NCBI GenBank assembly: GCA_903907955.1
Contig: CAIVPZ010000109.1
Coordinates: 124,001 to 188,000 of the forward strand
Origin: an uncultured Acetobacteraceae bacterium
GTDB taxonomy: Bacteria; Pseudomonadota; Alphaproteobacteria; Acetobacterales; Acetobacteraceae
DNA: 64,000 bases
Direction of reading: 5' to 3'
The translations under genes were made by a program, and so were the position numbers. The notes under the pieces were generated by a model. It was not told the origin of the DNA. It did no database searches and saw only the letters and a list, made by a program, of their open reading frames with translations. Positions 10,601 through 39,811 of this stretch are shown piece by piece; position 1 is the stretch's first letter; the number at the start of each line of letters is the position of its first letter.

Positions 10601-11434
10601 TCAGGCCGGTTGCAGGGCCGGCGCGGTCCGCGGCGCATGGGCGTAGGCGTGCGCCGCCGCCCAGTCGAGCAGTTCAAAGTTTCCGTCCGCATGCTCGACC
10701 AGCGCGGAGCAGCTTTCAACCCAGTCGCCCCCGTTCATGTACAGGACCTCCCCGACCCGGCGCATCTCAGGATGATGGATGTGGCCGCAGACCACGCCAT
10801 CGAAGCCGCGTCGCTGTGCCTCACCGGCCACCGCGACCGCGAACCGGTCGATCGCCTTCAATGCCTCCTTGACCTGTCGCTTCAGGTATCCCGAAAGCGA
10901 CCAGTAGGGCAGGCCGATGTGCCGGCGCGCCGCATTGAACCAGCGGTTGAGCGCCACCGCCGCGTCATACGCCCAATCGCCAATGACCGACACCAGCCGC
11001 GCATAGCGCACCGCGCCATCGAATTCGTCGCCGTGGATGACCAGCAGCCGGCGATCATCGGCAGTGACGTGCACCGCCTCGCGGCACAGCTGGAATCCGG
11101 ACACGACCATGCCGGCGAGGGCCAGGTGCGGCAGCCAGCCACGCAGCGTCTCGTCGTGGTTGCCTGGGACGTAGATGATTTCGGTACCACGGCGAACCTG
11201 CGCGATCAGCAGTCGCAGAACCTCGTCATGCCCCTCGTCCCAGTACCACGACTTGCACAGCCGCCAGCCATCGACGATGTCGCCAACCAGATACAGGCGA
11301 TCGCAGGATATGCGACGCAGGAAATCCGCCAGGAGGGCGGTCCGGCAGCCACGCGTTCCAAGATGGGTGTCAGAGATGAAGACGGTGCGGTAGTGGCGCT
11401 CGGTTCCCCGGAGGGGATGGATCAAGTCATGCAT
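10601..11434 (-). CDS. LpxH-like UDP-2,3-diacylglucosamine diphosphatase / metallophosphoesterase
   Basis: A 277-residue calcineurin-like phosphoesterase with the full metal-ligand series in order: SDTHLGTRGC (21-30), GDIVDGW, GNHDE, HGDEFDG and GHIHHPE. The insertion AVALNRWFNAARRHIGLPYWSLSGYLKRQVKEA is typical of LpxH2-like enzymes, which cleave UDP-2,3-diacylglucosamine in lipid A synthesis, though several homologues have unproven substrates. Start ATG 11434 is kept because it is the first in frame and FISDTHLG then falls near residue 19. It stands alone between two decayed IS fragments. Confidence 0.82.
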   Translation of the reverse strand: MHDLIHPLRGTERHYRTVFISDTHLGTRGCRTALLADFLRRISCDRLYLVGDIVDGWRLCKSWYWDEGHDEVLRLLIAQVRRGTEIIYVPGNHDETLRGWLPHLALAGMVVSGFQLCREAVHVTADDRRLLVIHGDEFDGAVRYARLVSVIGDWAYDAAVALNRWFNAARRHIGLPYWSLSGYLKRQVKEALKAIDRFAVAVAGEAQRRGFDGVVCGHIHHPEMRRVGEVLYMNGGDWVESCSALVEHADGNFELLDWAAAHAYAHAPRTAPALQPA

Positions 11435-11544
11435 GCGACCCCGACAAGGAGAGTTGCGTAAAATTCAATAAACCAGGCGCCGCCTCAGAAACGTGAACAT
11501 TTGATGATTCGGCATCGTCGCTTCACAAGAACGAAATTGTTCTG

Positions 11545-11690
11545 TCATCGGTGAAGCCCCGGCAGCTTGTGCCAAGCAAACAGCGTGCCGGAGGTGATCG
11601 GGATATTGCCCCGGCAAGCCTTGCAGCGCCAGCGCGGTTGGTCCTCGGGTCGCCGGCAGTCGTCGCTGATCATGCAGCCGCAGCCGGGAA
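11545..11690 (-). pseudogene. IS1595-family transposase zinc-ribbon fragment
   Basis: The minus strand reads CGCMISDDCRRPEDQPRWRC then KACRGNIPITSGTLFAWHKLPG before a stop at 11545. This is the Cys-pair zinc ribbon and the 'SVTSGTIFASHK' stretch that open IS1595/ISXO2 transposases. The catalytic domain is missing, so this is a relic. The rest of 11435-12043 carries no gene I can support; a 68-codon frame at 11670-11876 (minus) is unrecognised and probably not coding. Confidence 0.58.
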
Positions 11691-12043
11691 CCCGGCCTGA
11701 CCGGCCAGCATCAGCAAGGCGGCCAGCCGCATGGCCTGGTAGCAGGCGAAGATGGCGTTGTCCCGCCGCTCCGTGCCGCCGAGCCGGCCATCCAGGTCGC
11801 GCGCCCGGTGCAGCGGGCAGGCGACGGGGAACCGCAACGCCTCGAGATCGGCCCCTCGGACCAGGTCAACACTCAACGGCAGTGGCGGAACAGCCTATCC
11901 TGTTACCGGCCCGGGCGAGCAGGTTGCATATCCATGTCGGTCGCCCGCGGGTTGGGCGGGAAGAAGGGCTGATCGAGGCAGCAGCCCGCCTGTTGCGCAA
12001 CAGCTGCGCCGAGCAGCGGTGAACCACCGCTGCCGGCGCGGTG

Positions 12044-13555
12044 CTATTCGTTGGTGAAAAGGTGCCGGATGACTTCGATCTCGCCGCCGCTGGCATGGCG
12101 GGGCGTGCCGGCCAGGATGCCGGTTACCTCACGGAACGGCTTGCCGATATGCATGCCGTGCGCGTCGATGGTGAACTCGCGGATGTCCTTGTCATGGCGC
12201 GATCCGCGCATCTTCAGCACCGTGATGCCGCGCCGCATCTCGCCATACATCTCGACGTAGCGCAGCAGAATGATCAGGTCGGTGATGGTCGAAATATGCG
12301 CCTCGGTCACCGATTCCCCCCCGAGCAGATTGGGGGTGGTCGCCGTGAACAGGCCGGCAACTTCCTGGTGCTTGATGAACGAGGTCAGCCCGACCACGAA
12401 CTCGCGGAACCCGCGCGGTCCCGACACCCGTTCCAGCGCCGACAGGCTGTCCACCGCCACCCGCTGCGGGGCGAAGGATTCGATGGTGCGCTTCATCCGG
12501 ATCAGATGGTCTTCCAGGCCGTCGTTCTCCGGGTAGGCGCAGACCACCTTGAGCTTGCCCTCGGCCTCCATCCGCTCATAGTCGACGCCCCAGCCGGTGG
12601 CGTTGCGGAACAGCTGTTCGCGACTTTCCTCGAAAGCGAACAGCAGGCAGCGCTCGTTCAGCCGTGCGCCGCCCGCCATGAACTCGGTTGCCATCAGGGT
12701 CTTGCCGGTGCCGGTGGCGCCGGAAACCAGGATGATCGAGTCGCGGAAGAACCCGCCGCCGCACATCGCGTCCATGTCGATGCTGCCGGAGGTGATGCGC
12801 ACGTTGGACGACCGCTGCTTGAGCTCGATCGCCGACAACGGGATGACCACCATGCCCTCGCCGTTCAGGATGGCGAACGGGTATTCGCCCTTGTGGTGCG
12901 GCGTGCCACGGAACTTGAGAATTTCCAGGGTGCGCCGCCGCTTCTCGCCTTCCAGCACGTTGCGCAGGATGATGACGTTGTCGGCCACGAACTCCTCGAC
13001 GCCGTAGCGGGCGATCTCGCCGTACTCGGCGGTGCGCTCCGCGGTCAGCAGGGCGGTCAGGCCCAGCCGCTTGAGCGCGGTGGCGATGCGGAACATCTCG
13101 CGCCGCACCGTGGCGCTGTCGGTGAACTGGGTGAAGATGGCGCCAAGCGAATCCATCGAGAGGCGGTGCGCGCCCACCCGCGATACCGCGTATTCGATGC
13201 GGGCGAGCAGCGCGCCAAGATCGTAGTCGCCGACGATCACCGTCTCATGCGAAGGCTCCGGCGAGGCATCGACGAACGCCCAGAGCCCCTGGGCCTCCCA
13301 GGCCGCGATGTCCCAGCCGAAGCCGCTCATGTTGACGCGGACGTCCTCGGCGCTTTCCTCGAAGGTGACGAACACCCCGGACTCGCCGGTGTGACGGATG
13401 CCCTCGGCCAGGAACTGCGCCGCAAGAATCGTTTTGGCACTGCCGGCGCTGCCACACACGAGGGTGGTTCGTCCCAATGGCAGACCACCGTCGGCGACAT
13501 GGTCGAAGCCGGGAATATGGCTGGCAAGCTTGGTGATCGATGTGGTGTTAGCCAT
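12044..13555 (-). CDS. kaiC: Circadian clock ATPase/autokinase KaiC
   Basis: Double-domain RecA-like KaiC, 503 residues. CI: Walker A GSAGSAKT (35-42) and catalytic Glu pair FEE (66-67). CII: Walker A GATGTGKT (279-286), Glu pair 309-310, and the phosphosite context EAHISTITD, in which Ser422 and Thr423 align with Ser431/Thr432 of Synechococcus KaiC. Conserved phosphosites predict autokinase activity. The C-terminal tail after ILAGTP is ~20 residues, slightly shorter than the cyanobacterial tail, and lacks the long coiled coil of some proteobacterial KaiCs. It is the last gene of a six-gene minus-strand operon, 37 nt after kaiB. The rhythm or hourglass outputs it would drive are not visible here. 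Confidence 0.95.
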   Translation of the reverse strand: MANTTSITKLASHIPGFDHVADGGLPLGRTTLVCGSAGSAKTILAAQFLAEGIRHTGESGVFVTFEESAEDVRVNMSGFGWDIAAWEAQGLWAFVDASPEPSHETVIVGDYDLGALLARIEYAVSRVGAHRLSMDSLGAIFTQFTDSATVRREMFRIATALKRLGLTALLTAERTAEYGEIARYGVEEFVADNVIILRNVLEGEKRRRTLEILKFRGTPHHKGEYPFAILNGEGMVVIPLSAIELKQRSSNVRITSGSIDMDAMCGGGFFRDSIILVSGATGTGKTLMATEFMAGGARLNERCLLFAFEESREQLFRNATGWGVDYERMEAEGKLKVVCAYPENDGLEDHLIRMKRTIESFAPQRVAVDSLSALERVSGPRGFREFVVGLTSFIKHQEVAGLFTATTPNLLGGESVTEAHISTITDLIILLRYVEMYGEMRRGITVLKMRGSRHDKDIREFTIDAHGMHIGKPFREVTGILAGTPRHASGGEIEVIRHLFTNE

Positions 13556-13592
13556 TGTTGTACAGCAGTTCTGTTATTTTCTGGGGCATCTG

Positions 13593-13886
13593 TCAGGAAT
13601 TCCGCGGCGGCGACGGCGCGAGGCCGAGCCCCATCAGAACCTTATCGGAATCGGAAAGATCGCCGATGACGCGGCGCATGGGCTGCGGCAGAAACATCAC
13701 CAGCATCGGCGTGGCGATGATCCTTTCCTTTTCGGCGATCTGTGGGTTCTCGAGAATGTCGATGACCTCGACTTCGTAGCTGCGACCGTCAAATTCCTTT
13801 TCGCAAAGCTCGCGCAGGTTGGCGATCGCGCGTTCCGCCCGTGGAGTCTGGCCGATGACATACAGCTTGAGGCGATATTCACTCAT
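13593..13886 (-). CDS. kaiB: Clock protein KaiB
   Basis: A 97-residue thioredoxin-like fold-switching protein that binds the KaiC CI ring. The sequence fits throughout: LKLYVIGQTPRAERAIANLREL, a YEVEVIDILENPQIAEKERIIATPML segment (the fold-switch half) and a short C-terminus. ATG 13886 overlaps the preceding receiver gene stop by 8 nt (ATGAGTGA), implying coupled translation. It is not fused to a kinase, so it is KaiB rather than a SasA N-terminus. Confidence 0.95.
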   Translation of the reverse strand: MSEYRLKLYVIGQTPRAERAIANLRELCEKEFDGRSYEVEVIDILENPQIAEKERIIATPMLVMFLPQPMRRVIGDLSDSDKVLMGLGLAPSPPRNS

Positions 13887-14808
13887 GCGTATTCTTGCCC
13901 GTTGGCGACAGGACCGCGTCGGGATGGCGGCGAATGGCCAGGTTGCGGCTGCGATAGGCGTTCAACACCCGGCCCATCAGTTCGATCAGCGTGAGCCGGC
14001 CGGTCTCCATCAAGGCCCGCGCGCGTCCCGGCGCCTCGCCGGCCGCGCAGGCGGAGAGTGCCCGGTAATGCAGCTCCGTCACGTCGCGTGCGCCGGCGCG
14101 CGTGCGGAACAGGCGCTCGGCAAGGTCGCGAAGGCCGATCGTGACCACATTCTCAATCCGGAAGATACGCTGTTCGAGGGCGTTGCGGAGCAGCGACTGA
14201 TAGGCGGCCTGCAGCTCGGCGAACGCCGCCGGCGCCGTTTCGCTGAGCGGCCCCACGCCGAGCACCCGCGCACTCATCGGCACCGTGCCGGCCGCCGAGT
14301 CGCCAAGCGCGCGGATTTCGGCGTCATAGCTGGCCTGGCGTTCGCGCTCGAACTGCTCGCGCCAATGGCGCTCGCTGTCGCGCAAATCGTCGATCGTGAT
14401 CTTGTGGCGCAGATAGGCATGCACCCGGGCAAGCAGCTCGCGATTGTCCACCGGCCGCGACAGGTAGCCATCGGCGCCCGCAGCGATTCCCTGCACCACC
14501 GAATCGCCGTCGGTGCGCAGGGCTGAACACAGCACGACGAAGGCGCTGCTGGTTCGCGGGTCGGCCTTGATCTGGCGGCAGACCTCCAAACCGTCGATGT
14601 CCGGCAGCATGACGTCGAGCAGGATCAGATCCGGCTGCTGCTGCTGGGCGCGGCGCAGCGCTTCCTCGCCGCTGTGGACCTGGGTGACCGTATAGCCTTC
14701 CCGCGCCAGCAGCCGGGCCGAGCCGGCGGTGATCGTCGCGTCGTCATCGACCACCAGGATATCGGCCGTCCCATCCTTGAAGACCGGCCGTGGTGCCGAA
14801 TTGTTCAT
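13879..14808 (-). CDS. Receiver domain fused to a KaiA/RsbU-like helical domain
   Basis: A 309-residue protein. Residues ~15-132 are a CheY-like receiver with acidic pocket Asp21-23 and phospho-acceptor Asp65 (LILLDVMLPD); the usual conserved Lys is Arg118 (SRPV). Residues ~135-170 are a charged probable coiled coil. Residues ~197-290 form an all-helical domain (YQSLLRNALEQRIFRIENVV, DVTELHYRAL, LIELMGRVLNAYRS) whose spacing recalls the KaiA C-terminal / RsbU N-terminal four-helix fold. There is no DNA-binding or enzymatic output. Its position directly before and overlapping kaiB suggests it feeds kinase signals into KaiBC, as KaiA or KaiA3 does in cyanobacteria; that role is inference. ATG 14808 is chosen because the receiver begins shortly after it; the upstream residues look like read-through. 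Confidence 0.72.
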   Translation of the reverse strand: MNNSAPRPVFKDGTADILVVDDDATITAGSARLLAREGYTVTQVHSGEEALRRAQQQQPDLILLDVMLPDIDGLEVCRQIKADPRTSSAFVVLCSALRTDGDSVVQGIAAGADGYLSRPVDNRELLARVHAYLRHKITIDDLRDSERHWREQFERERQASYDAEIRALGDSAAGTVPMSARVLGVGPLSETAPAAFAELQAAYQSLLRNALEQRIFRIENVVTIGLRDLAERLFRTRAGARDVTELHYRALSACAAGEAPGRARALMETGRLTLIELMGRVLNAYRSRNLAIRRHPDAVLSPTGKNTHE

Positions 14809-14863
14809 CGGACCGGCCCTGTCGCGGCCGGGCAGCCCACCGCCTGAACGTCGTGCCGGCGGT

Positions 14864-15520
14864 TCACGGCTGTACTCGTTGCGCACGGGCGCCCGCTGCG
14901 GCGCGGGCCTGCGATACCGTGGCCTCGACGGCGGCAATCCAGCCCGCCGGAAAGCGTTGCGGGTTGGTCATCCAGCCGCTCAGATTGACAGCCGCGCCGA
15001 TGCTCCCGTCGATTTCGTCGGCCACGGCCGCGACCAGAAGGTGGGGGGTCTGCGGCAGGCGCGAGCGCCAGTAAGCCTCGGTTGCCAGGTCGAAGGCTGC
15101 GGCCAATGCCGCGATCTGCACATCCGGGATATGCGCCTGCCGGGCATCGCGCAGGCCATCGGCGGCCCGGCGCAGCGTGTCATGGACGGCGATATTCGCC
15201 GGAAACGCGGCATCAAGCTCGTCGCACAGGATATTCAGATGCGTCTGCAGGATAAGGGAAGGAATGCCCCGGGTCGCGAGCACCTGGCGCAGCCAGCTAA
15301 TCTGCCCGGCAACGGTGGGCGGGTCAAGGTGGGTCAGGGTGGCCAGCCAGGCACTGTCGCTGCGGGTAAAGCGGTAGCCACGTTCGCCATATCGTTCGGC
15401 CAGATAGGGAAAGCGATGCCAACAGAGATCGCCGGCGCGCAGCGAGGCCGCCAACTCCCGCGGATCGGCCGGCACCGGATGCGTGGCCGCCTCGGCATTG
15501 AGCATAGCTGCAGAAATCAC
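14864..15520 (-). CDS. Unknown helical protein of the clock operon
   Basis: A 218-residue soluble, mostly helical protein with no signal peptide or membrane segment and no family I can name. A central block (residues 66-107; D66, P68, W76, RGIP 84-87, H94-L95, P107) matches, almost without gaps, residues 68-110 of the cobalamin protein two genes upstream (D68, P70, W79, RGVP 87-90, H97-L98, P110), so both carry one shared domain. It may be a partner or dimerisation adaptor of that sensor. It is separated by 154 nt from the kinase gene and by 55 nt from the receiver gene, so a separate promoter in the 154-nt gap is possible. Confidence 0.7.
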   Translation of the reverse strand: MISAAMLNAEAATHPVPADPRELAASLRAGDLCWHRFPYLAERYGERGYRFTRSDSAWLATLTHLDPPTVAGQISWLRQVLATRGIPSLILQTHLNILCDELDAAFPANIAVHDTLRRAADGLRDARQAHIPDVQIAALAAAFDLATEAYWRSRLPQTPHLLVAAVADEIDGSIGAAVNLSGWMTNPQRFPAGWIAAVEATVSQARAAAGARAQRVQP

Positions 15521-15674
15521 CCGGAACTCCGTCGGAACTTCGACAAGGTGTTGTTAAACCAAAAGAAATTTTAGCCTAGCAGTCGGACGCCCGGAATGGC
15601 AAGCGAATCTTCCCGCTGGACCGGGCCGGCTTGCATGTCCAGGCGCGTTGTCACAGATGTGGCGCCGCCCCCAT

Positions 15675-16898
15675 TCAGCCCTCCACCGGGCCTCGCATGG
15701 GCAGGCTCAGGATGAAGCGGGAGCCGCGTCCGACCTCGCTTTCGACGCGGACCTCGCCACCATGCCCTTCGGCGATCCGGCGGACGATGGCGAGGCCAAG
15801 GCCAGTGCTCCTTTCGCCGGCGGTGGGGCGCACGGTGGTCCGGCTGAACGGCTTGAAGAGCTTGGACAGGTCCGCCGGCGGGATTCCCTGCCCCTGGTCC
15901 TCGACCTCGATTGTCACGCTGCTGCCGCTGGTGCCGAGCCGGACATTCACCTGGGTGTGTGCCGGCGAGAACTTGATGGCGTTGCTGATCAGGTTGTTGA
16001 GGATCTGCTCGACCTTGGCGGCGTCGACGGTGACCGGCAGCGTTTCCACCGCCGGCTCGAAACGAAGCTCGATCTGTTTGCGCGCGGCCAGGACCCGGTT
16101 GAGCCGCAGGTTGTTCTGCAACAGTGCCACCAGCTCGGTCGGCTGCAGCTTCAGATTGAGCTGCCCGGCTTCGATTTGCGAGACGTCCAGGATATCGTCG
16201 AGCAACCCGAGCATGAACTGGCTGGTGGCCCGGATGGTTGAGACGAATGCCCGCTGCTCGCTGTCGAGCACCTCCGCCGCCTCGTTTTCCAGGAACTCGC
16301 TGTAGGTCAGGATCACCCCGATCGGACTGCGCAGGTCGTGCGCCGCAATGCCCAGCAGCCGGTTCTTTTCCTCGTTGAGCATCGAGAGTTCGGCGTTCTT
16401 GCGCGCCAGCTCCCGCTGGAGGTTGGCCAGCTCGTTGTTGACGCGCGTCAGATCCTCGAACATCGCGTCGTCGCGATCCCGGTTCTGCGAGGAGACGACG
16501 GCGAGCTTCTTCGCCATGGCGCGCAGCGTATTGGTTTGTTCGTTGTTGATGCGCAGCATCTCCTCGTTCATGCGGACCAGGGCGCTGCGGGTTCGCGCGG
16601 CGACGACCAGCATGCCTTCCTCGGTTCGCACGCCGGCGAAATGGAGCGGCATCAAAACGGTTCCGGTTGGGCCGGCGCCGGTTGCGACGGTGATCTCCCA
16701 GTCGAATGATGCGTCGTACTTGCGGACCGCCTCGGCAAAGGCGTTGAGCTTGTCCCGGGCAACCGGATCGACCAGCGCATCCAGGCGCGCCCCCGGCGGG
16801 GTTCGCGGCGAGAGACCAAGATCGTCGCGCACCACCCGTATGACCGTGCCGTCGGCCTCGCAGCGAAGCGCGATTCCCCCTTCGGTGGCCGTATTCAT
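15675..16898 (-). CDS. PAS-type sensor histidine kinase of the clock operon
   Basis: A 407-residue cytoplasmic kinase. Residues ~8-105 look like a PAS-like domain; ~108-182 a long coiled coil (NEEMLRINNEQTNTLRAMAKK, ELANLQRELARKNAELSMLNEE); then a HisKA domain with His187 (AAHDLRSPIG) and a HATPase_c domain (N box NNLISNAIKF, G1 DQGQGIP, G2 STGLGLAI). There are no membrane segments and no KaiB-like SasA domain. ATG 16898 overlaps the B12 gene stop by 4 nt (ATGA), so the two are translated together. The obvious phosphotransfer partner is the receiver protein at 13879-14808. A longer frame reads into the upstream gene and is rejected. Confidence 0.92.
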   Translation of the reverse strand: MNTATEGGIALRCEADGTVIRVVRDDLGLSPRTPPGARLDALVDPVARDKLNAFAEAVRKYDASFDWEITVATGAGPTGTVLMPLHFAGVRTEEGMLVVAARTRSALVRMNEEMLRINNEQTNTLRAMAKKLAVVSSQNRDRDDAMFEDLTRVNNELANLQRELARKNAELSMLNEEKNRLLGIAAHDLRSPIGVILTYSEFLENEAAEVLDSEQRAFVSTIRATSQFMLGLLDDILDVSQIEAGQLNLKLQPTELVALLQNNLRLNRVLAARKQIELRFEPAVETLPVTVDAAKVEQILNNLISNAIKFSPAHTQVNVRLGTSGSSVTIEVEDQGQGIPPADLSKLFKPFSRTTVRPTAGERSTGLGLAIVRRIAEGHGGEVRVESEVGRGSRFILSLPMRGPVEG

Positions 16899-17983
16899 GA
16901 GCACCCCAGCTTTGCATCGACCAGATTGTTGGCAAGCAGGACCGCCGCGTCCGCGTCGGGTCCGCTGCCGTCCGCCCCGATCTGCTGCCAGAGCCCCGGC
17001 TGGTGATTGAACGGGAAGCCGCCGACGATGACCTTGACGCCGCTGCACTCCGGACGATCACGGACCAGGTCGATCAGGCGCTTCACCTCCTCGATGTGAT
17101 GGGCGATGGTGGCGGAGATTGCCAGCACGCCGGCCCGGCGTTCGATGACGGCCTGGACAACGTCGCTGATCGGGGTGTTGGCGCCGGTATAATACGAGTC
17201 CCAGCCATCGATTTCGAAAAAGTCGGCAACCATGCGCGCGCCCAGCTCATGCAGCTCGCCGCTGACACAGGCGACAACGACGGTGCGGCCAATCTTCTTG
17301 CTGGAAAAGATGTACGAATAAAGCTGTGACATGATGAGCTGGGTTGCCGCCGTCGCGTAGTGCTCCTCGGCAACGCTGATCCGGTTGATCTGCCACAGGC
17401 GGCCGATCTCATGCATGGTGGGCAGGAACACGTGGAGGTAGATTTCCTTGATCGGCGTGCCCAGTTCCGCCATCTGCAGCACCAGACGGCTGCCCAGTTG
17501 CCGGTCGCCGCGGAGCAACGCCCGGAAATAGAGGGTTGCCAGTGGCGAGAGCGGCGCACCCGGCCGCAGGAAGCCCGGCGGCTCATCGGGCAGCTCCGGC
17601 ATGGCCTGCAAGGCCGCCAGCACGACATCGGAAGCCTGGCTGCCGGCATCGTTGGGAAGCCCCCGGCGCACGGCCGCCGCGACATATTCCAGATGCAGTG
17701 CGAGCGCCGAGTCCGGCACGCCCCGCTGGATCAGCGCGGCCTTTGCCCAGCCCACGCAATCGATGAACAGGATTGGCTTGTCCCATGCCAGGGCCCGGCG
17801 AAGGTCGGCAAGGAGATGCCCGGCAATCTGCCGCAGGAACTTCTGCCTGTCGGCGCCATCGCCGCTGCCGTTGGGCTGGGAGGGGGCCGGCACCCGGCCG
17901 GTGAGGTCGCTGACGATTTCGGCGCGTGCCGCGACCAGCCACTCGCTCGCCTGCAGTTGCGGCGACCGGGAGTCGCTTACCAT
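16895..17983 (-). CDS. Cobalamin-binding protein with CarH-like photosensor motifs
   Basis: A 362-residue protein. The N-terminal part (~50-130) is helical and shares a block with the unknown protein at 14864-15520. Residues ~145-225 are a B12-binding cap domain containing W197-x9-E207-H208 (WQINRISVAEEH), the Wx9EH motif that places the upper axial side in light-sensing AdoCbl proteins such as CarH. The Rossmann domain (~233-355) carries SGELHELG with His245 as the lower ligand; CarH-type proteins likewise use GExHExG rather than DxHxxG. There is no MerR DNA-binding domain, so the output is probably protein contact with the kinase encoded by the overlapping next gene. Light or B12 sensing is inference from the motifs. 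It is the first gene of the clock operon. Confidence 0.85.
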   Translation of the reverse strand: MVSDSRSPQLQASEWLVAARAEIVSDLTGRVPAPSQPNGSGDGADRQKFLRQIAGHLLADLRRALAWDKPILFIDCVGWAKAALIQRGVPDSALALHLEYVAAAVRRGLPNDAGSQASDVVLAALQAMPELPDEPPGFLRPGAPLSPLATLYFRALLRGDRQLGSRLVLQMAELGTPIKEIYLHVFLPTMHEIGRLWQINRISVAEEHYATAATQLIMSQLYSYIFSSKKIGRTVVVACVSGELHELGARMVADFFEIDGWDSYYTGANTPISDVVQAVIERRAGVLAISATIAHHIEEVKRLIDLVRDRPECSGVKVIVGGFPFNHQPGLWQQIGADGSGPDADAAVLLANNLVDAKLGCS

Positions 17984-33393: not shown

Positions 33394-33882
33394 TCAGGTT
33401 TCCTCGTCATCCAGGAAGTCCATGGAGCGGCGCGGCTCCTGCGCGCCCATTACCTTGCGCAGCCAGGGCGGCGGATTGCCCGCCATCATCGTCTGCACCC
33501 GCGCCAGGATCGAGTCGATCGGTTCGGGCGCCGCCAGCTTCACCGGGTGGATGTGCGCGCCCACCACCTTCGCCGCCGCCGGCCCGCCAATGGCCAGCAC
33601 GAACAGCAGATGGCAGCCGGTCAGGGCCTCGACCTTGGCGCCGATCCGGTCCGCGCCGTCATCGGAATGCGCGCCGGATTGGTCGGACACGTTGTCGAAG
33701 CTGAGCGCCTCGACGAAGCGCGCCTCGGCGGGGGTGACGTCATAGACGGCGAAGCGGGGCGCCGAGCCGAAATGCGCGTTCAGCGTGCGCATATCCTGCG
33801 TGGCGATGGCCACGCGCAGCCGCGGCAGCGGTGCCTCCTGCGGCGCCGCGGTTTCAATGAGCGACAGGCGACGCGCCAGCAT
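33394..33882 (-). CDS. nifX: NifX, FeMo-co precursor carrier
   Basis: A 162-residue protein of the NifX/NafY family that holds NifB-co or VK-cluster between NifB, NifEN and NifDK. The core RVAIATQDMRTLNAHFGSAPRFAVYDV has the cofactor-binding region with His in AHFG. It starts at ATG 33882, inside the end of nifN (29-nt overlap). Confidence 0.93.
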   Translation of the reverse strand: MLARRLSLIETAAPQEAPLPRLRVAIATQDMRTLNAHFGSAPRFAVYDVTPAEARFVEALSFDNVSDQSGAHSDDGADRIGAKVEALTGCHLLFVLAIGGPAAAKVVGAHIHPVKLAAPEPIDSILARVQTMMAGNPPPWLRKVMGAQEPRRSMDFLDDEET

Positions 33883-35254
33883 GGTGTTTCTCCTGATCGG
33901 CGGTGAAAGGAGGGGGGATGGCGGAGGCGAAGTCATCGGGGCCATGCGTGTGCATGCCGGCCAGGACGGTGTTCGCCACTTCGAAAATCAGGTCGCGGGT
34001 GCCGCGATAGCCGGCGGTGCCGCGATGCAGCGCGCCCAGCCGGTCGAACACCGGAAAGCCGCAGCGCAGCAGCGGAATGTGCAGCCGCTCCGCCGCCTGC
34101 CGGCCATGGCTGTGGGTGACCAGCAACTCGGCCCCGCCGGCGCGGGCGAGATCCTCCAGGTCCATCAGATCGCCGACCACCACGCGCTTCGCCGCACAGG
34201 CCGCCAGATGCGGCGCATTGGCGGTGGCGGCCACCGCCGCCACGATGTCGGCGCCCAGCGCGGCAAAGAAGCCGGACAGCGCGAACAGCAGGTCGGGATC
34301 GGCGCCGATGGCGACGCGGCGCCCGCCGAACTGGAAATGCCCGTCCAGCATCGCATCGAGCAACTGGCTGCGCTGGCGCCGCAGCCCGGCCGGCGCCGGC
34401 CGTCCGGAAATTTCGCTGAGCAGGGCGACGAATTCGTCGGCGGGGCCGAGGCCGGTCAGGCTGCGCAGCACGGTGGCAGGCACGCCGGTGCGCGCGGACA
34501 GCAACTCGGCCGGGGCGCGCATGTGTTCGCCGATGGCGATGGTGTGGCGGGCGCGGCCCATGCGGACGATGTCTTCCAGCGCGGTGCCGCCCAGCGTGGT
34601 GGCGACATACTGCGCCGGCACCGTGCCGTCGAGCGACTGCGACACATCGGGCAGCACCACCGCCGCGAGGCCGAACGCCTGCGCGGTTTCCACCATCCAC
34701 TCGATATCGGCGGCGGTCTGGTGCACGCCGGGCAGCAGATTGACCTGCGGCGGCAGCGGGGCGGCCCCGTCGGCCGGCTCGACGATCGTCTCGATGATGG
34801 CGGCAACCGCGCGCGACCAGCCGTCCTCCAGCCCGCCATGGTAATCCGGCGTATGCGCCAGCACCACGCGCACGCCGGCGAGTTCCGGCCGGCGCGCCAG
34901 GATCAGCCGCAGATCGCCTTCCATGTCCTCGCCGCGGGTTTCCACCAGTGCGGTGGTGGCGATGCCGATGAAGCGCGGCTTCATCCGTTTGGTCAGGTTG
35001 ACCAGCGCCTGCTCCAGATTGTCGGCGCCGCCCATGATGGTCGCCACTTCGTCGAGCGCCGTGGTCTGCAGCGGAATCGCTTCACGGGTGTGGCGCACGG
35101 TCAGCACCAGCGCGAACGAGGTGCATCCCTGGGCGCCATGCAGCAGCGGCACCGCGCCGGCGATGCCCAGATAGGCCAGCGCGGCGCCAAGCGGTGCCGA
35201 GGATTTCAGCGGATTGGTCATCAGCGCCTTGCGGGCGTTCACGAGTTCGGCCAT
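33854..35254 (-). CDS. nifN: NifN, FeMo-co assembly scaffold subunit
   Basis: A 466-residue NifK-like scaffold subunit. LLHGAQGCTSFALV provides one cluster Cys. With NifE it forms the heterotetramer on which FeMo-co is completed. ATG 35254 is chosen (MAELVNARKALMTNPLKSSAPLG), 7 nt after nifE ends. The length is normal. Confidence 0.95.
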   Translation of the reverse strand: MAELVNARKALMTNPLKSSAPLGAALAYLGIAGAVPLLHGAQGCTSFALVLTVRHTREAIPLQTTALDEVATIMGGADNLEQALVNLTKRMKPRFIGIATTALVETRGEDMEGDLRLILARRPELAGVRVVLAHTPDYHGGLEDGWSRAVAAIIETIVEPADGAAPLPPQVNLLPGVHQTAADIEWMVETAQAFGLAAVVLPDVSQSLDGTVPAQYVATTLGGTALEDIVRMGRARHTIAIGEHMRAPAELLSARTGVPATVLRSLTGLGPADEFVALLSEISGRPAPAGLRRQRSQLLDAMLDGHFQFGGRRVAIGADPDLLFALSGFFAALGADIVAAVAATANAPHLAACAAKRVVVGDLMDLEDLARAGGAELLVTHSHGRQAAERLHIPLLRCGFPVFDRLGALHRGTAGYRGTRDLIFEVANTVLAGMHTHGPDDFASAIPPPFTADQEKHHAGASPVAH

Positions 35255-35261
35255 TGCCGCC

Positions 35262-36689
35262 TCACCCGCCCGCAGCGGAATGCGCCGCCGCCGGTGCATC
35301 GGCGCATTCCCACGGCGCCGGCCGCCGCACTTCCTGCCACACCGGATTGGTCAGCGCGCGGTGCAACTCGGCCACCAGCGCCACCACGCCGTCATAGCCG
35401 GCGAAGGCCAGATGGCGTTCCTGGTTGATGTCGCGCCACGGCGTGCGCGCCTTCAGGGCAACGAACTGCGAGCGCCCGCCGGAGAGCATGATATCGGCCT
35501 CGCCGCGGGCAAGCTGGGCGTACATTTCGCGCGGTGGGATGCTGTCCACCATGTGCGCGTCGCCGCCCATCAACGCCCGGATGCGGCCCTTGTCCTCGTC
35601 GGTCGATTTGCGCACGGAGGTGTGGGTGATCACCATGCCGATCTCCTGCAGGGCCGACACGATCGACCAGGATTTCACCCCGCCGGTGTAGAGCAGCACC
35701 CGCTTGCCCCGCAGCGCCTCCCGGTACGGCGCGATGCGCGCCCAGGCCCGTGCTTCCTCCGCCGTGATCAGCGCTTCCGTCCGCTCCGCCAGCGCCGGAT
35801 CGGCGCCGCGCGCCACCAGCATGCCCGCCAGCGTGCGCAGCGAGTCGGAGGTGTCGGAAATGCCGTAGAACGAGCCTTCGAAATACGGAATTCCCCAGCG
35901 TTCCTGCATCACCCGGGCGATGTTGATGAGCGCGCTGGAGCACACCATCATGTTGACCCGGGCGCGATGGCAGGAAGCGATGTCGTTGTAGCGGGCATCG
36001 CCGCAGATGGTGGCCTGCAGCCGGATGCCGATCGCCTCCAGCAGCGGCTTCACCTGCCACAGCTCGCCGGCGACGTTGTATTCGCCGAGGATGTTGACAT
36101 CGGTCGGCGTCACCACCGCCGGCTCCCGCGTGCCGATGACATGCGCCAGCAGCGTCTCGCCGGCCAGCCGGTTGCCGAGATTCTTGGGGCCGACGAAACC
36201 CGGCGCGTTCACCGGAATGCACGGCGTGCCGAGCTTCCCGGTGGCGTGGCGGCACACCGCCTCGATGTCGTCGCCGATCATCGCCGGCACGCAGGTGGCA
36301 TAGACGAACACCGCCGGCGGCGCGTGCCGGGCGATCGCTTCCCTGATCGCGCGATACAGCAGCTTCTCGCCGTTGCCGAGCACGATGTCCATTTCGGAAA
36401 GGTCGGTGGTGAAGCCGAGGCGATAGGTCTGCGGACCCGAACTGCCGGAGTGGCGGTTGTCCCAGCCATTGCCCTCGCAGGCCAGCGGCCCGTGCACCAG
36501 GTGGACGGCATCGGTGATGGGTTGCAGGGCGATCTTGGCGCCATCGAAGGCGCAGCCGCCGGCGGCGGCACCGGGGGTGAGTGGCTTGGAGCAGCCCTTG
36601 CGGCGCTCCTTCTCGGTCTTGGCGTTGTTGGTGGGGCAGGCCGGCTCGTTGAACACCGCGGCGATGCGGGATTTCAGCGCCTCGTTCAT
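35262..36689 (-). CDS. nifE: NifE, FeMo-co assembly scaffold subunit
   Basis: A 475-residue NifD-like scaffold subunit. Conserved: [58 protein letters not shown]. It lacks the full FeMo-co ligand set, as NifE should. It follows nifK by 67 nt and precedes nifN by 7 nt. Confidence 0.96.
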   Translation of the reverse strand: MNEALKSRIAAVFNEPACPTNNAKTEKERRKGCSKPLTPGAAAGGCAFDGAKIALQPITDAVHLVHGPLACEGNGWDNRHSGSSGPQTYRLGFTTDLSEMDIVLGNGEKLLYRAIREAIARHAPPAVFVYATCVPAMIGDDIEAVCRHATGKLGTPCIPVNAPGFVGPKNLGNRLAGETLLAHVIGTREPAVVTPTDVNILGEYNVAGELWQVKPLLEAIGIRLQATICGDARYNDIASCHRARVNMMVCSSALINIARVMQERWGIPYFEGSFYGISDTSDSLRTLAGMLVARGADPALAERTEALITAEEARAWARIAPYREALRGKRVLLYTGGVKSWSIVSALQEIGMVITHTSVRKSTDEDKGRIRALMGGDAHMVDSIPPREMYAQLARGEADIMLSGGRSQFVALKARTPWRDINQERHLAFAGYDGVVALVAELHRALTNPVWQEVRRPAPWECADAPAAAHSAAGG

Positions 36690-36756
36690 CTGCCTCTCCT
36701 CGGCGAGCGTAAAGAAAAGCCGGGCCGGGCGGCGCGCTGCCACCCGGCCCGTGCAG

Positions 36757-38289
36757 CTAGCGCGTCAGGTCGAAGGAGATATCCTCTCCGATCCCAACAG
36801 CATCGTTGTCGAGCTTGTCGAAGATCTTGTCGAGCACCGTCACCAGCACGCGCAAGCCGCCCTGATAGCCCCAGACCGGGAAGCGGTGATGGTGGTGGCG
36901 GTCGAAGATCGGGAAGCTCAGCCGGATCAGCGGCACGCCGCAATCGCGTTCGAGGTACTTGCCGTAGGAACTGCCGACCAGCAGGTCCACCGGTTCGGTG
37001 GCCAGCAGCGACCGCAGGTGCCACAGATCCTTGCCGCCCCAGGCCTTGCAGCCGGCGCCGAACGGGGTGGAGGCGAACAGCGCCTGCATCTGCGCTTCCC
37101 ACGTCGCGTTGCCGTTGGTGGCCAGGCAGTGGCGCGGCTCGCCACCGGTCTCAAGCACGAAGCGCGCCATGCCATAGACGAAGTCGGGATCGCCAAAGAT
37201 CGCGTAGGTCTTGCCGTGCAGATAGGCCTGGCTGTCGGCCAGCGCATCCACCAGCCGGCCGCGTTCCTTCTCCAGTTCCGCCGGGATCTCCTTGCCGGTC
37301 AGTTCGGCAATGGCCTGCAGCAGATCGTCGGTGCCGCCGACGCCGAGCGGGTAGTGCAGGGAGGCAACCTGCTGCCCCTGCGCCTTCGCGTAGTCGAGCG
37401 TCTTGTGGGTGCACCATTCCTGCAGCGACAGGGTGGCGCTGGCGTGGAGCGCGTCCTTGGTCGCCTCGATCGTGGTGCCGCCGTCATACATCCGGTACTC
37501 GCCGTCCGACGGCGTGTCGAACTGGTCGGACACGTCGGAGAGCAGCGTGTACTCGGCGCCGAACAGGTCGAGGATGCGCTTCAGCTCGCGGTTGTTGCCC
37601 ACCGCATAGCCGTCGAACCCGCCGATCACATTCAGCCCGGTGCCGGGGGTGCGCTCGCGCTTCTTCCAGAAATGCTCGAGGATGCCCTTGAGCATGTTGT
37701 CGTAGCCGGTGGTGTGGCTGCCGACGAAGGCCGGGGTGTGGGCATAGGGCACGTCGAAGTCGGCCGGCACCGATCCCTTGTCCCGGGAGGTGGAAATGAA
37801 CGCCTGCAGGTCGTCGCCGATCACCTCCGCCATGCAGGTGGTGGAAACCGCGATCATCTTCGGGCTGTACAGCGTGTAGGCGTTGGACAGCCCATCGATC
37901 ATGTTCTGCAGGCCGCCGAACACCGCCGCGTCCTCGGTCATGGACGACGACACCGCCGCGCAGGGTTCCTTGAAATGGCGTGACAGGTGGCTGCGATAGT
38001 AGGCGACGCAACCCTGGCTGCCATGCACGAAGCTCAGCGTGCGCTCGAACCCGGCGGCGACGAACACCGCACCCAGCGGCTGGCACGCCTTCGCCGGGTT
38101 GATGGTCAGCGCTTCGCGGGCAAAGTTCTTCTCGCGGTACTCCCAGCTTTTCGTCCAGGCGTCGGTCTTTTCCACCTCGGCGGCGGGCGGCATGCATTCC
38201 ATCTGGCGCTTGCGGGCCAGCATCTCCTGGTATTCCGGGGTGCGGAACAACGGGGCGTGGTCGAGAATCTTCTCGGCGGACTGCGGCAT
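36757..38289 (-). CDS. nifK: Nitrogenase MoFe protein beta chain
   Basis: A 510-residue NifK with the P-cluster ligands in [16 protein letters not shown] and [16 protein letters not shown], and the C-terminal DISFDLTR. The N-terminal [13 protein letters not shown] also carries the conserved P-cluster Cys. It follows nifD by 25 nt. Mo-type rather than V- or Fe-only by length and the presence of nifQ, nifEN and nifV; no anfG or vnfG is present. Confidence 0.97.
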
Positions 38290-38314
38290 CAGTTCTCTCC
38301 TTCCGGTTCTCGGC

Positions 38315-39811
38315 TCAGGCCGACTTCTTCCAGGGCGCCTTGAACAAGCCCCAGACCGGGTTGTTGATCGCCAGGTCCATGTCGCGGGCGAAAATGGCGA
38401 ATCCGTCATAGCCGTGGTACGGCCCGGAATAGTCCCAGGAATGCATCTGCCGGAACGGCACACCCATCTTCTGGGTCGAGTACTTCTCCTTGATGCCGGA
38501 GCCGACCAGGTCGGGGCGGATGCCCTCGATGAACTTCTCCAGCTCGTAGCCGGTCACGTCGTCATAGATCAGCGTGCCGCCCTTCACGTAGTGGCCGGTG
38601 CGCTGGTAGTCGTCGTTGTGGGCGAATTCGTAGCCGGTGCCGGCAATCTCCATGCCGAGATCGACATAGGCGTTGACCACGTGGCGTGGCCGCAGCCCGC
38701 CCACGTACAGCATCACCCGCTTGCCTTCGAGCCGCGGCTTGAAGCGCGCCAGCACGGCATCGACGAACGGCTTGTACTTCTCGATTGCGCGCTCGGCGTT
38801 CTCCTGGATCGTCGCGTCGAAGCGGGCGGCGATGGCGCGCAGGCTGGTGGCGATCTGCGACGGGCCGAAGAAGTTGTACTCCATCCAGGGGATGTTGTAC
38901 TTTTCTTCCATGTGCCGGCAGATGTAGTTCATCGACCGGTAGCAGTGGATCAGGTTCAGCTTCGCCTTCGGCGCGTGCTCCAGCTCGGCGAGCGTCGCGT
39001 CGCCTGACCAGTTGCCCACCACCCGGAGGCCGATCTCCTCCAGCAGGATGCGGCTGGCCCAGGCGTCGCCGCCGATGTTGTAGTCGCCGATGACGTTGAC
39101 GTCGTACGGGGTGGTCTCGAAGCCGTCATGGTCCTTCTTGTCGAACACCCAGTCGCGCACGGTATCGTTGGCGATGTGGTGGCCGAGCGACTGCGACACG
39201 CCGCGGAAGCCCTCGCAGCGCACGGGCACGATGGTCTTGCCGGTTTCCTTGTGCTTCTTGCGGGCCACCGCCTCGATGTCGTCGCCGATCAGGCCGATCG
39301 GGCATTCCGACTGGATGGTGATGCCCTTGGCGAGCGGGAACAGCCCGCCGATCTCGTCGATCAGCTTCTCAAGCTTCTTGTCGCCGCCGAAGACGATGTC
39401 GCGCTCCTGGAAGTCGGAGGTGACCTGCATGGTTACGAACGTGTCCACGCCGGTGGTGCCGGTGTAGTAGTTCCGGCGCTGCGACCAGGAGTAGTGGCCG
39501 CAGCCCACCGGTCCATGGCTGATATGCACCATGTCCTTGATCGGACCCCACACCACGCCCTTCGAGCCGGCATAGGCGCAGCCGCGGATGGTCATCACGC
39601 CCGGGATGGACTTGATGTTGGACTTCACGTTGCATTCGCTCAGCGCGGCGTCGTCAGCCGGGCTCACGCCCTCTTCCGGCTCCGGCACGCCGCGGGAGAC
39701 GTCCAGATGCTTCTGGCGCCGCTTGCGCGACTTGTCGGGGTAGGCCTCCAGCACTTCGGCGATGAGGCGCTTGTTGAATTCACCGTCGCCGGCATTGTTA
39801 TCGAGTGGCAT
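38315..39811 (-). CDS. nifD: Nitrogenase MoFe protein alpha chain
   Basis: A 498-residue NifD. P-cluster Cys are in [21 protein letters not shown] and [12 protein letters not shown]. FeMo-co ligands are Cys in [13 protein letters not shown] and His in [15 protein letters not shown]. It is the second gene of the nifHDK transcript. Confidence 0.97.

Follow-up and report, generated by a model that had tools for sequence, protein, structure and literature searches.

We analysed a stretch of 64,000 nucleotides (nt) from an uncultured Acetobacteraceae bacterium (contig CAIVPZ010000109.1; hereafter the window), in which six consecutive genes join a B12-binding protein and a histidine kinase to the Kai clock proteins. 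All coordinates are positions in the window, and all operon features lie on the minus strand. Two related loci are referred to throughout: L138, from genome G587, and L170, on contig C395 of G935 (an Acetobacteraceae metagenome assembly). In order of transcription, the features are as follows.

16895..17983, minus strand: B12 protein of photocobilin type, 362 amino acids (aa) (PF02310 and PF02607; phmmer matches; motif residues)
17564..17848, minus strand: photoglobin-like domain of the B12 protein, residues ~46–140 (family profile, E = 7.5e-23)
15675..16898, minus strand: partner histidine kinase, 407 aa, with HisKA (His187) and HATPase_c (Pfam; motifs; follows the B12 gene in relatives)
15521..15674, minus strand: gap of 154 nt between kinase and photoglobin genes, a possible second promoter (alignment with L170)
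14864..15520, minus strand: free-standing photoglobin-like protein, 218 aa, D55 (photoglobin profile; orthologs in L138 and L170)
13879..14808, minus strand: KaiA3-type protein, 309 aa (Response_reg; C-terminal profile against the PDB; AlphaFold2 model)
13927..14232, minus strand: KaiA-like C-terminal domain of that protein, residues ~193–294 (profile against the PDB; AlphaFold2 model)
13593..13886, minus strand: KaiB, 97 aa (PF07689, 2.3e-24)
12044..13555, minus strand: KaiC, 503 aa, with two RecA-like domains (TIGR02655 and PRK09302 above cut-off; motif positions)

The open reading frame coordinates and the Pfam/NCBIfam domains agreed with the six genes, their order and their single strand as given in an original prediction made from the letters alone. 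That prediction had also called the junctions tight. The overlaps between B12 protein and kinase (4 nt) and between KaiA3 and KaiB (8 nt) and the KaiB–KaiC gap (37 nt) were exact, but the kinase–photoglobin (154 nt) and photoglobin–KaiA3 (55 nt) junctions are loose. Promoter and terminator scans yielded no more than shuffled sequence did. The larger gap holds a promoter-like TTGCCA-18-TAGGCT with a counterpart in L170 (TTGCTT-18-TAAATT; weak evidence, from a single comparison), a pair ahead of the photoglobin gene which suggests that the operon may comprise two transcription units.

The B12 protein consists of an N-terminal photoglobin-like domain, a four-helix B12 cap and a Rossmann B12 domain (B12-binding, PF02310, 1.7e-23; B12-binding_2, PF02607, 2.7e-14). 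In a phmmer search of solved structures, CarH ranked below the photocobilins 8j2w and 8j2x and below a further B12 protein (8jbs); 8j2y was also matched. The residues that place adenosylcobalamin (AdoCbl) in light-sensing proteins are kept (W197-9x-E207-H208 and E243-x-H245), with the W-to-EH spacing of SasPcob. A family profile of the N-terminal domain matched 8j2w and 8j2x first in the PDB (E = 2.6e-8), then phycocyanins and allophycocyanins, and the B12 protein of a relative, L181, passed the Phycobilisome Pfam cut-off; we therefore assigned the domain as a photoglobin. The column of the bilin-binding Asp (SasPcob Asp270) was placed from alignments to photocobilin structures and PDB profile matches. 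Outside the window's clade, 30 of 32 aligned relatives have the Asp; the window has Ile53 and L170 has Val instead, and the B12 protein of the congener G587 has lost the photoglobin domain altogether.

By its sequence, the protein is of photocobilin type and is predicted to bind AdoCbl. With the published photocobilins (Zhang et al. 2024, PMC10979010) it shares an AdoCbl domain carrying W-9x-EH and ExH and a photoglobin domain. It differs from them in that its photoglobin is N-terminal and has lost the bilin Asp, its output is a separate kinase rather than a fused GGDEF domain, and a second, free photoglobin gene lies in the operon. AbPcob, which has His at the bilin Asp position and binds biliverdin weakly, is still named a photocobilin (PMC10979010). 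The original prediction had described a CarH-like sensor. The B12-binding fold, an adenosine-stacking Trp and a Glu-His motif are common to both, but the window protein lacks the MerR-type DNA-binding domain and scored 60.4 bits against a CarH model cut-off of 400, and we rejected that identity.

The protein encoded at 14864–15520, previously listed as unknown, gave no match in the Pfam search. Together with its two orthologs (61% identity in L138 and 73% in L170) it matched a photoglobin profile, with E-values from 1.4e-7 (window) to 4e-7, to which 0 of 500 shuffled copies and none of the unrelated open reading frames matched. All three proteins keep an Asp at the bilin position (D55 in the window), beside a four-residue alignment gap. 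An AlphaFold2 model from two sequences had a predicted local distance difference test score (pLDDT) of 41, too low to be usable, so the identity rests on the profile match. We read the gene as a free-standing photoglobin with predicted bilin binding; most simply, the fused domain would have lost this role and a separate subunit taken it up. A study of bilin-biosynthesis-associated globins (PMC10151467) describes, in its available part, a photoglobin/phycobiliprotein-clade globin whose gene neighbours that of a separate B12-binding protein. The motifs given in that part are CXRD or CXQD, compared with TRSD in the window globin, and the kinase–Kai linkage seen in the window does not appear in it.

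The next gene encodes a receiver (Response_reg, 5.7e-27) with phospho-acceptor D65, followed by a linker helix and a KaiA-like four-helix domain. Searched against 177,635 PDB sequences, the C-terminal profile had KaiA as all eight best matches among those listed (E = 0.005–0.03), and in the AlphaFold2 model (pLDDT 85.6) the receiver is followed by a long helix and then by a bundle of four helices. Foldseek with this model listed receiver-domain proteins, which neither backs nor refutes a KaiA-like domain. The D65 column is invariant in 27 aligned proteins (alignment A7). Of the KaiA/RsbU-like domain proposed earlier, profile and model bear out the KaiA-like half; KaiA structures were the sole credible matches, no RsbU chain was among the matches listed, and the RsbU-like label was dropped. 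The fusion in itself is not a novelty, having been published as KaiA3 (PMC11372060), and the receiver protein is KaiA3.

KaiA3-KaiB3-KaiC3 systems occur in Synechocystis and other cyanobacteria, Rhodospirillum, Bradyrhizobium, Chloroflexus, Roseiflexus and Chloroherpeton (Koebler et al. 2024, PMC11372060). The window shares with them the receiver–KaiA-like fusion, its gene directly upstream of kaiB and kaiC, and the conserved phospho-Asp; it differs in that a photocobilin–kinase pair and a photoglobin precede KaiA3. Its KaiC scored above the circ_KaiC cut-off (632.6 versus 546.25 bits) and carries the phosphosite motif EAHISTITD (S422/T423). It is 55–77% identical to KaiC from other loci, in other genera, that have KaiA3 or a B12 link, but ~37% identical to the two other KaiC of its own genome. 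KaiB and KaiC may belong to the B3/C3 subgroups; the KaiC tree was built without a Synechocystis reference. The KaiB–KaiC hourglass of Rhodobacter is likewise a Kai-based timer in a purple bacterium, but it has a KaiC2-type protein with an extended C terminus and no KaiA (PMC11372060), whereas the 503-aa window KaiC is KaiA3-linked and has no extension.

The whole gene order recurs in two further species of the genus, L170 and G587 (three including the window), which argues that it reflects more than chance. Identity to the window was 96% for KaiC and 73–90% for the other proteins in L170, and 81% and 61–68%, respectively, in G587. In the latter, an inserted gene for a hybrid kinase of 992 aa separates the kinase and photoglobin genes. 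G587 in fact has two similar 992-aa PAS hybrid kinases (L138:5298-8276 and 10785-13763), inside the operon and just upstream of it. B12 protein and KaiA3 were both present in three of seven sampled genus genomes and both absent from the other four, two of which still have other kaiB genes. Among 398 family genomes, just one outside the genus had a KaiA3 match, and it was marginal.

Across 84,980 species genomes scanned, the B12 protein had 356 relatives, and all locus counts given here are based on the best 80. These 80 loci spread over many bacterial phyla and the archaea, and a kinase relative directly follows the B12 gene in 67 of them. Relatives of the B12–kinase pair at L208, L214, L225, L234, L236 and L238 come from assemblies named as methanogens and Lokiarchaeota. 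Within 10 kb of the B12-protein relative, kai genes were found in 9/80 loci, on the same strand in all nine: L168 (Thioalkalivibrio), L170, L181, L184, L191, L192, L196 (KaiB alone, on a contig piece), L201 (Adhaeribacter) and L233 (Accumulibacter), spanning Proteobacteria, Chloroflexota and Bacteroidota. Simple chance models expected 0.4–1.3 of 80, which the nine observed exceed about 7–20-fold (P < 1e-5 for nine loci; P = 0.00009 to 0.01 for five independent cases). In the B12-protein tree the kai label changes at least five times on well-supported branches. L181 (Anaerolineae) has a contiguous B12–kinase–KaiA3–KaiB–KaiC run, and L233 has the same with one extra regulator. This recurrence backs the original prediction that the clock genes share an operon with a B12 sensor and a kinase.

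Hybrid kinases lie right after KaiC at L168:8939-11320, L181:7938-9428 and L233:6201-8153, and their first receiver is of the photocobilin-linked KaiA3 type. They are possible output partners; the window has no such gene after its KaiC.

The strongest hint of a circuit came from the receivers. The receiver of the window's KaiA3 had a median identity of 49% to receivers that directly follow the B12-linked kinase in kai-free loci, compared with 32% to other receivers in those loci and 25–39% to KaiA3 receivers without a B12 neighbour. Among the 100 receivers of a phylogenetic tree, the six from photocobilin-linked KaiA3 all grouped with 19 of 20 that are encoded downstream of the kinase (Shimodaira–Hasegawa-like approximate likelihood ratio test (SH-aLRT), 90), a group that also takes in the hybrid-kinase receivers of kai-linked loci, and 24 unlinked KaiA3 receivers formed a separate clade (SH-aLRT 97). 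Compared with unlinked Pseudomonadota KaiA3, the window protein has a receiver of a different type (PleD/PhoB-like, GADGYLSRPVDNREL). As the tree groups them, a KaiA-like domain appears to have been fused to the kind of receiver that goes with the B12-linked kinase, and this kinship supports phosphotransfer from the kinase to KaiA3. Koebler et al. stated that the kinase for the conserved KaiA3 phospho-Asp was unidentified (PMC11372060), and the window kinase is a candidate for this input.

We consider it probable that the locus couples a KaiA3–KaiB–KaiC timer to a sensory two-component system of its own, which serves as its input. In such a mechanism the B12 protein would bind AdoCbl, and light breakage of the Co–C bond, or another change in cobalamin state, would alter the activity of the adjacent kinase. 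D65 in the receiver of KaiA3 would take up the phosphate from the kinase. Once phosphorylated, KaiA3 would stimulate KaiC autophosphorylation through its KaiA-like domain to a different extent or in a different way, so that the signal would set the KaiB/KaiC timer's phase or state. The free photoglobin would probably be a separate bilin-binding sensor subunit that stands in for the B12 protein's degenerate photoglobin domain. The original prediction had drawn this pathway from sensor through kinase and receiver to KaiBC; the kai linkage (9/80) and the matching receiver type favour it, but the cofactor occupancy, the light or AdoCbl signal, the phosphotransfer, the effect on KaiC and any rhythm are matters of inference. 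The host was also predicted to be phototrophic, which the two reaction-centre genes (PF00124) in its genome support. It further has an adenosyltransferase gene and a weak heme-oxygenase-family match, split in two pieces. AdoCbl, perhaps biliverdin, and a reason for light sensing would thus be present.

Several observations weigh against this reading. No kai genes lie within reach in 71 of the 80 B12–kinase loci, meaning that the pair is not clock-specific, and no B12 gene accompanies the kai loci that were retrieved from 31 further genomes of Pseudomonadota, the one phylum for which the share of kai loci with the B12 pair was counted. The branch joining linked KaiA3 to downstream-of-kinase receivers, at SH-aLRT 90, is not starred. 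Most unlinked KaiA3 receivers retain the conserved Lys, but the window's KaiA3 and those of its linked relatives that were read have Arg there (YLSRP, YITRP; alignment A7), a replacement that may make phospho-signalling weaker or different. The four congeners lacking B12 protein and KaiA3 are partly incomplete assemblies. In the KaiC tree the linked loci cluster (2 label changes versus 8.9 in shuffles), although the linked and unlinked sets come from different searches and partly different phyla and their separation may partly reflect sampling.

The main rival concerns the signal. The B12 protein could sense cobalamin supply or redox/oxygen rather than light, coupling metabolic state to the Kai timer, which would fit the presence of the B12–kinase pair in many lineages not known as phototrophs, archaea included, the loss of the bilin Asp in the window (I53) and of the whole photoglobin domain in G587. 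We regard this as rather unlikely, given that the light-type residues W-9x-EH and E/DxH are all kept, the free-standing photoglobin retains D55 and the genome has reaction-centre genes. Alternatively, the kinase may be an output under KaiC or KaiB control, as are cyanobacterial SasA and CikA, and signal to an unlinked regulator. Kinases are frequent on the output side of kai loci, and hybrid kinases follow KaiC in L168, L181 and L233; the window kinase, however, lacks a KaiB-like domain by Pfam search, partners the B12 gene in 67/80 loci, mostly without kai, and has a receiver kinship that points to KaiA3, all of which makes an output role improbable. Least credible of all is a signalling cluster that came to lie beside kai by accident in one genus, without function. 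The low share of kai-linked loci and the two loose junctions (154 and 55 nt) would suit it, but recurrence in three phyla at ~7–20 times the chance estimate, on the same strand in 9/9, largely refutes it, and receiver kinship and the joint presence or absence of B12 protein and KaiA3 in the genus also speak against it.

The favoured reading, a timer with its own two-component input, has a bolder version to which we give only tentative credence: that light directly resets a non-cyanobacterial Kai clock through a two-protein photocobilin (an AdoCbl subunit and a bilin globin), a kinase and a phosphorylated KaiA3 that had swapped its receiver for the one of the light-sensing two-component system, in a wiring common to Proteobacteria and Chloroflexota. 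Cyanobacterial clock inputs are mostly indirect, through the ATP/ADP ratio and quinone redox (PMC11372060). For the day/night input to Kai timers outside cyanobacteria, the locus offers a candidate through which light may act directly. A single run of genes, found again in distant bacteria, encodes a protein of light-sensor type, a kinase, a KaiA protein with a matching receiver and the timer, so the proteins to purify are named and the question can be tested in vitro. KaiA3-KaiB3-KaiC3 (PMC11372060) and photocobilins (PMC10979010) were each known alone. Our search of the literature on KaiC with cobalamin or B12 photoreceptors found no report of a link, though kai neighbours might be mentioned in a 2022 study of photoglobins (PMC8717448); as far as that search shows, the junction of photocobilin and Kai, its recurrence and the receiver match are new.

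The genome of the window (G000) has two further kai loci. On contig C55 (L088), KaiC is followed by two KaiB and, further on, a kinase; contig C52 (L089) carries KaiC, KaiB, a kinase and a receiver. Within the window, three genes of the nitrogenase component-1 family (PF00148) lie at 33854–39811 on the minus strand, ~16 kb from the operon's B12 gene.

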